Source: Thermus parvatiensis (GTDB lineage: Bacteria > Deinococcota > Deinococci > Deinococcales > Thermaceae). From it: DNA of 64,000 nucleotides. The notes under the pieces are model-generated. The model was not told the DNA's origin. It saw only the letters and a list, made by a program, of their open reading frames with translations, and ran no database searches. Position numbers and translations under genes: made by a program. The DNA is taken from NCBI RefSeq assembly GCF_001535545.1, contig NZ_CP014141.1, positions 186,001-250,000 of the forward strand, in the 5' to 3' direction. Shown in pieces: positions 51,203-54,117 of the stretch. Position 1 is the first letter of the stretch; the number at the start of each line of letters is the position of its first letter.

Positions 51203-51879
51203 ATGTGGGCCCTATTTCTCTTGCCGTGGGGGTCTTTCCTCCTTGGCCTCCTCCCCCTGGCCGTGGCGGACCCCGTGGGGACGGCGGGGTGGGGCGCTCT
51301 TCTCGCCGCCTTACTCCTTGCCGCCGTGGCGAGCCTCTACTCCCGCTTCCCCGTGGCCTTCCCCGTCCAGCTCGCCCTGGTGCTGGGGCTCAGCCTTCTG
51401 GCCTTTGAGCGCGCCCTGGAAGGCGCCCTGCGCCTGGTGGGGTCTGACCCCCCCGGCTACGCCGCCCTTGGGGGGGTGCTCGGGGCTTTGGCCCTGGGGG
51501 TGGCCTTCTTCCTGGGGACGGGGCGGGAGGCCCCCCTCCTTCCCCCCCTGCCGGGGGTGGGGGAGCGGGAGGACCTCCTGCGCCTCGCCGGGGCCCTGGA
51601 GGGGCTCGCCTTAAGGCGGCCCTTGGTCCTCGTCTACCTGGCCACGGAGGCCCCGCCCGAGAGGCTGGAGGCGGAGCTCAGGCGGGGGGATCTGGCCTTT
51701 AGGCTTCGGGGGGGGTACCTCCTCGTCCTCCAGGGGGGCCGCCCCGAGGACGCCCTGGGCCTCCTCAAGCGGCTCCAGGCCCGGTTTCCCCTCTCGGCCT
51801 ACGCGGTGGAGCGCTGGCGGGGGGGAGCTTTGAGAAGGTGCTCGCCCGCCTCGAGGCCGAGGCCCTCCTCCAGTCCTGA
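51203..51879 (+). CDS. Membrane protein with degenerate GGDEF domain (apparent frameshift)
   Basis: After repair the product has about 225 residues. The N-terminal half has four or five helices ([71 protein letters not shown]). The C-terminal half follows the pattern of a GGDEF domain, but the signature GGDEF is replaced: [16 protein letters not shown]. Diguanylate cyclase activity is therefore not expected; binding of a nucleotide or a partner is possible. The frame breaks in the G7 run at 51819-51825; one G gives [22 protein letters not shown]. Confidence 0.6.
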
Positions 51880-51882
51880 AGC

Positions 51883-51920
51883 GGTGTAGCCTCCTCGTCC
51901 CTACACCCACAAGGGGTGTA
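51883..51920 (+). promoter_or_regulatory. Two mutually exclusive hairpins upstream of the 24-residue peptide gene
   Basis: GGTGTAG (51883-51889) is complementary to CTACACC (51901-51907). TACACCC (51902-51908) is also complementary to GGGTGTA (51914-51920). The two 7-bp stems share the same middle strand, so only one can form. The layout is like a switch, but no known riboswitch core is recognised. Confidence 0.4.
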
Positions 51921-51989
51921 CGGGTCTGCCCCCTAGAGCCCCCGGCTTCCCTCGGGCTTCCCCTACCCTGGGGCTTAAGGAGGTGGACC

Positions 51990-52064
51990 ATGGAGCAGGG
52001 GAAAGCCATCAGCGAGGCCTGGAAAGAGGCCCTGGAAACCTACGGAGAGCGCGAAGAGGAGTAG
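51990..52064 (+). CDS. 24-residue peptide gene
   Basis: An ATG with an excellent ribosome-binding site (AAGGAGGTG, 51978-51986) opens a 24-codon frame starting MEQGKAISEAWKEALETYG and ending in a run of acidic residues. It could form one amphipathic helix. A strong intrinsic terminator follows 13 bases after its stop and a switch-like pair of hairpins lies 70-107 bases before it, so it looks like a self-contained transcription unit. I recognise no family. It could be a regulatory or structural micropeptide. Confidence 0.5.
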   Translation: MEQGKAISEAWKEALETYGEREEE

Positions 52065-52077
52065 TCCTAAAGGTGCC

Positions 52078-52110
52078 CGGGGGCGGGGAAGCCGCCCCCG
52101 ATTTTCCTTT
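52078..52110 (+). terminator. Terminator after the 24-residue peptide gene
   Basis: CGGGGGCGG (52078-52086) and CCGCCCCCG (52092-52100) form a 9-bp GC stem with a GGAAG loop, followed by ATTTTCCTTT. Confidence 0.85.
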
Positions 52111-52202
52111 ACCGCCCCACCGGGCGCTTCCTCCGGGGGGGTCCAGGACCGCCCAATCTCCATGGGTGCACCAATCCCCCCACTCTACCACGGGAAGGCC
52201 CT

Positions 52203-52214: not shown

Positions 52215-54117
<1,903 letters not shown>

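Follow-up and report, generated by a model that had tools for sequence, protein, structure and literature searches.

The segment 51880–52110 of the window (the whole 64,000-nucleotide stretch of Thermus parvatiensis DNA analysed here) appears to contain a transcription unit for a 24-residue microprotein of the Thermaceae, controlled by a regulator common to the genes of isocitrate lyase (aceA) and pyruvate, phosphate dikinase (ppdK); from sequence comparison, we assign this reading a probability of about 0.75. The unit is best interpreted as encoding a new microprotein family of the Thermaceae, and the three genes as members of a previously undescribed regulon of the glyoxylate shunt and gluconeogenesis. 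A literature search of incomplete coverage yielded nothing on the microprotein or on control of the glyoxylate shunt in Thermus, a model thermophile. The initial annotation had proposed a self-contained unit with a 24-codon gene, a ribosome-binding site, and a terminator, encoding a charged helix of no recognised family. All three elements are present, and the comparison supports a charged micropeptide that is conserved, probably helical, and without a known family. The features of the region are as follows.

51883–51888, + strand: half-site H1, GGTGTA, 81 bp 5' of the −10 box, the same distance as at aceA and in other genera
51902–51907, + strand: half-site H2, TACACC (inverted); in this genome its ACAC begins 61 bp 5' of the −10 box
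51915–51920, + strand: half-site H3, GGTGTA, exactly 49 bp 5' of the −10 box in 23/23 Thermus copies
51932–51937, + strand: degenerate position of a fourth half-site, H4, in which only TA (51934–51935) is kept across Thermus
51964–51969, + strand: predicted −10 box TACCCT, with TAnnnT invariant in 23 copies and a probable RNA start at about 51976–51977
51977–51984, + strand: ribosome-binding site AAGGAGGT
51990–52064, + strand: 24-aa microprotein gene, MEQGKAISEAWKEALETYGEREEE, with ATG at 51990
52078–52108, + strand: intrinsic terminator, a 9-bp G+C stem (52078–52100) followed by the T tail ATTTTCCTTT
52107–52163 (bounds approximate), − strand: apparent remnant of the typA 3' end (C-terminal codons), read directly from the sequence and named by its C-terminus

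The DNA of the unit and its peptide both recur in 23 of 27 Thermus genomes, the peptide with E-values from 5e-11 to 9e-8, far above chance, and in a 24th (G023) the gene is split over two contig ends, giving 24/27 in total; the named carriers include T. composti, T. scotoductus, T. igniterrae, T. brockianus, and T. arciformis. Conservation in close relatives, on which the initial annotation had made its proposal depend, is thus seen for the peptide, and the upstream element recurs across Thermus genomes as well. Among the 20 distinct coding sequences, variable columns are distributed over the three codon positions as 5/3/18, and there are about 21 synonymous and 11 non-synonymous changes, while random change would give 18.5% synonymous; the excess of synonymous changes argues that the 24-codon frame is coding. 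With the codons under purifying selection and the peptide conserved between species, 51990–52064 is almost certainly a genuine coding gene.

Profile search extends the family to three further genera of the Thermaceae (G049; G027 and G028; and most genomes of the large sister genus g4). The homologues number 24 residues in G049, 36 in G027 and G028, and mostly 61–65 in g4, where G032 has 53, so that both length and N-terminus differ between genera; near the C-terminus, all carry [IML]SxAWxEALExY or a close variant, and the helix residues A-W-x-E and E-x-Y of the peptide are invariant. Beyond these genera, the class (111 genomes) yielded no convincing relative; Pfam and NCBIfam scans gave no family match, and a profile search of the PDB yielded no meaningful relative. 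A phage origin of the unit was also considered and rejected, as tblastn against phages gave no match. The microprotein was undetected, with aceA kept, in three Thermus genomes (G014, G018, G025) and four sister genomes (G029, G030, G038, G046), hence it is dispensable in evolution.

The half-sites upstream of the gene have a strict geometry. The three-half-site pattern is found in 22 genomes, a single time in each, and a palindrome search finds the element in 23 genomes, with 0 control matches in either case. The distance between H1 and H3 is 32 bp in the Thermus copies (31 in G020), and the distance from H3 to the TAnnnT hexamer is invariably that of the window, with the intervening sequence free to vary; beyond the hexamer, the spacing loosens by one. 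Fixed spacing with variable sequence in between is a promoter signature, and places the RNA start approximately at the ribosome-binding site. The −35 region of this copy (about 51940–51945) is poor, which, like the degenerate H4, counts against the overall reading. Outside Thermus, most microprotein promoters carry GTGT at 81 and 49 bp before TACCCT or TATCCT, the latter being the −10 hexamer of many g4 copies. In G049, 6 nt separate the hexamer from the ATG; the message there would be leaderless and could not include the arms. Additional DNA hits outside the locus (L025–L030) resemble chance matches to coding DNA and were set aside.

A pattern search reveals, in many genomes, a second site of the same layout before aceA, whose identity as the isocitrate lyase gene is given by E = 1.5e-230, and a sequence model of the site gives two strong hits in most genomes, the microprotein gene and aceA. 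With distances counted from the −10-like CAGACT directly 5' of the aceA ribosome-binding site, nearly all 27 Thermus genomes have half-sites at 81 and 49, with ACAC at 61 and 29; in g4, where the hexamer is CATACT, the half-sites are at 81 and 48–49 in most genomes with the hexamer located. Weaker model hits upstream of ppdK are kept in several genomes (weak hits within coding genes were discarded); in Thermus, ppdK shows the promoter-proximal half of the geometry, GGTGTA 49 bp before CAGACT or a variant. Hence, the same DNA motif is found at the same promoter position before several genes and in several species, as expected of a shared regulon. Membership of the microprotein gene in one regulon with aceA can scarcely be doubted on this comparison, and joint membership with ppdK is very likely. 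Separately, CTCC..GGAG complementarity flanks the −10 region CAGACT upstream of aceA (L133–L159) and could pair with the ribosome-binding site.

We propose that one DNA-binding regulator controls sigma-A-type promoters of the microprotein gene, aceA, and ppdK by binding palindromic GGTGTA-N13-TACACC units. The common geometry at aceA and ppdK marks the arms as a probable activator site 5' of the predicted RNA start: the proximal unit would abut the −35 region, and its distance to a weak −10 box is constant, as at an activator position. The regulator would thus switch on the three genes together; the sites are shared, and the sign of regulation, likely to be activation, is deduced from their position. 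The two enzymes, isocitrate lyase and pyruvate, phosphate dikinase, are used when cells grow on acetate, fatty acids, or other gluconeogenic carbon. The microprotein would be a helix that binds an enzyme of the isocitrate or pyruvate/PEP branch and acts post-translationally, shifting flux to the glyoxylate shunt and gluconeogenesis on acetate-like carbon. It is probably part of the switch for growth of Thermus on such carbon sources, while the chance that it acts on an enzyme of the glyoxylate shunt or of gluconeogenesis is somewhat less than even. If it does act on an enzyme there, it would rank among the smallest known regulators of metabolism.

Small regulatory proteins of central metabolism include PirA and PirC of cyanobacteria and SgrT of enterics. 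The likeness would consist in a very small protein, a nutrient-responsive promoter, and an expected enzyme or transporter target; however, the microprotein was found in one thermophile family only and lacks a Pfam or NCBIfam match. In enteric bacteria, the isocitrate branch point is controlled by AceK, a large kinase/phosphatase whose gene is part of the aceBAK operon. The microprotein would resemble it in being expressed together with isocitrate lyase and could determine the flux at isocitrate, although it is a chain of 24–65 aa without a catalytic domain. A more specific proposal, that it is the dedicated regulator of this branch point and does the job of AceK in Thermaceae with 24 residues (e.g., as an inhibitor of isocitrate dehydrogenase, or as an activator or stabiliser of isocitrate lyase), is speculative, and we consider it improbable.

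Less probable than action within these branches, yet the strongest of the alternatives, is that the microprotein has no tie to the glyoxylate shunt: it would merely be under the same broad regulator of carbon-source use and have its target elsewhere, e.g., in transketolase, which contains a comparable helix segment. The control of ppdK by the same regulator would fit this, as would the second-best Thermus match of the peptide, in a long ORF read as transketolase (E-values 0.013–0.6); however, the latter is a weak match of a common helix pattern, and isocitrate lyase is favoured both by the adjacency to aceA in G032 and by the operator most strongly shared. Mimicry of transketolase by the peptide was accordingly rejected as an explanation and is retained as a lead only.

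It is also rather unlikely that the operator is bound by a repressor and the genes are turned off. The position of the half-sites would be compatible with repression, the proximal one abutting the −35 region; however, all sites lie 5' of the −10 box, the core promoters are weak, and the phasing is constant, which is the usual layout of activation.

The initial annotation had read the arms as two alternative 7-bp hairpins competing for one strand, and peptide synthesis as set by this RNA switch. The inverted arms do exist (hairpin 1, GGTGTAG at 51883–51889 with CTACACC at 51901–51907; hairpin 2, TACACCC at 51902–51908 with GGGTGTA at 51914–51920), they are complementary in both pairings in the window, and hairpin 2 is part of the predicted minimum-energy fold; the seventh pair of each, however, is not conserved. 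In the 23 Thermus copies, the only change within the six core pairs of either hairpin is one break (A–C in G016), which is uncompensated, and the seventh pair and the pairs inside form no more often than in shuffled sequences. The fold of the leader RNA is only modestly better than that of shuffles (z = −1.54, with 13/200 shuffles equally good), Rfam gave chance-level hits only, none of them credible, in agreement with the earlier remark that no known riboswitch is matched, and covarying conserved structure was not found in the leader. Given these results, the constant distances of 32 and 49 bp around sequence that varies, and the service of identical arms at aceA and ppdK, a transcribed leader with two mutually exclusive hairpins is very improbable, and the switch proposal is abandoned. 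With high confidence, the paired arms are instead taken as a DNA operator and promoter; RNA synthesis would begin near 51977 at the ribosome-binding site, leaving the hairpin arms untranscribed.

Equally improbable is an RNA product (an sRNA or an attenuator), as a short, terminator-ended unit might suggest, since substitutions follow a codon pattern, conservation between genera is at the protein level while length and N-terminus change, and past the terminator the unit has no gene for a leader peptide to control.

For the regulator acting through the DNA operator, a weak candidate is a P-loop/TPR protein encoded directly 3' of aceA in most Thermus genomes. In G032, the microprotein homologue itself lies between aceA and the P-loop/TPR gene, its start 17 bp from the stop codon of aceA, which links it physically to aceA. 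The protein has roughly 925 aa (L247, 1664–4441), with Pfam matches limited to TPR. Its presence in 50/50 Thermaceae genomes searched, and a gene start that often reads TATAGTGTATACACC-ATG, a leaderless promoter, make it a candidate; damage to the gene (frameshifted or broken in G000, G026, and G008) while the sites there are intact counts against it. In the genome of the window and its near relative G026, the broken or frameshifted gene is located at L246, 4263–5150, and L252, 1737–2906, while it is intact in most others.

The CRP-type activator TTHB099 of T. thermophilus recognises the palindrome TGT(A/g)...(T/c)ACA in a 16-mer site (PMC7662524). CRP-type promoters, including those of TTHB099, are similar to the ones analysed here in having palindromic TGT/ACA half-sites near promoters; however, in place of the 16-mer, the half-sites here are GGTGTA/TACACC with 12–13 bp between them, in pairs 32 bp apart. 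The analysis thus defines a class of fixed-geometry promoters in Thermus and its relatives, those of isocitrate lyase, pyruvate phosphate dikinase, and the microprotein gene, and a 24-aa gene without a Pfam or NCBIfam family gains a testable place in metabolism.

The conserved link of the microprotein is to isocitrate lyase rather than to rarA or DUF1028, next to which the initial annotation had suggested looking for it in other Thermus genomes; that linkage is not kept, and many copies adjoin typA or another convergent gene. In the window, DUF1028 and rarA are neighbours as described, but the upstream ORF, described as a degenerate GGDEF gene, matches no Pfam family as currently framed. Near 51819, a run of seven G seems to have shifted the frame of this GGDEF-like gene (51815–51889); the C-terminus in other Thermus copies is ...EAEALLQS*, and the equivalent stop in the window would be at 51879, before the operator. 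On the other side, the DUF1028 gene (52215–53075) has an apparent wrong-frame stretch at approximately 52525–52720, between intact DUF1028 and peptidoglycan-binding parts, perhaps due to two compensating frameshifts or to assembly errors. In many other Thermus genomes, typA is convergent with the microprotein gene at the matching position, and the typA-like remnant in the window marks a rearrangement that placed DUF1028 where many Thermus have the convergent gene.
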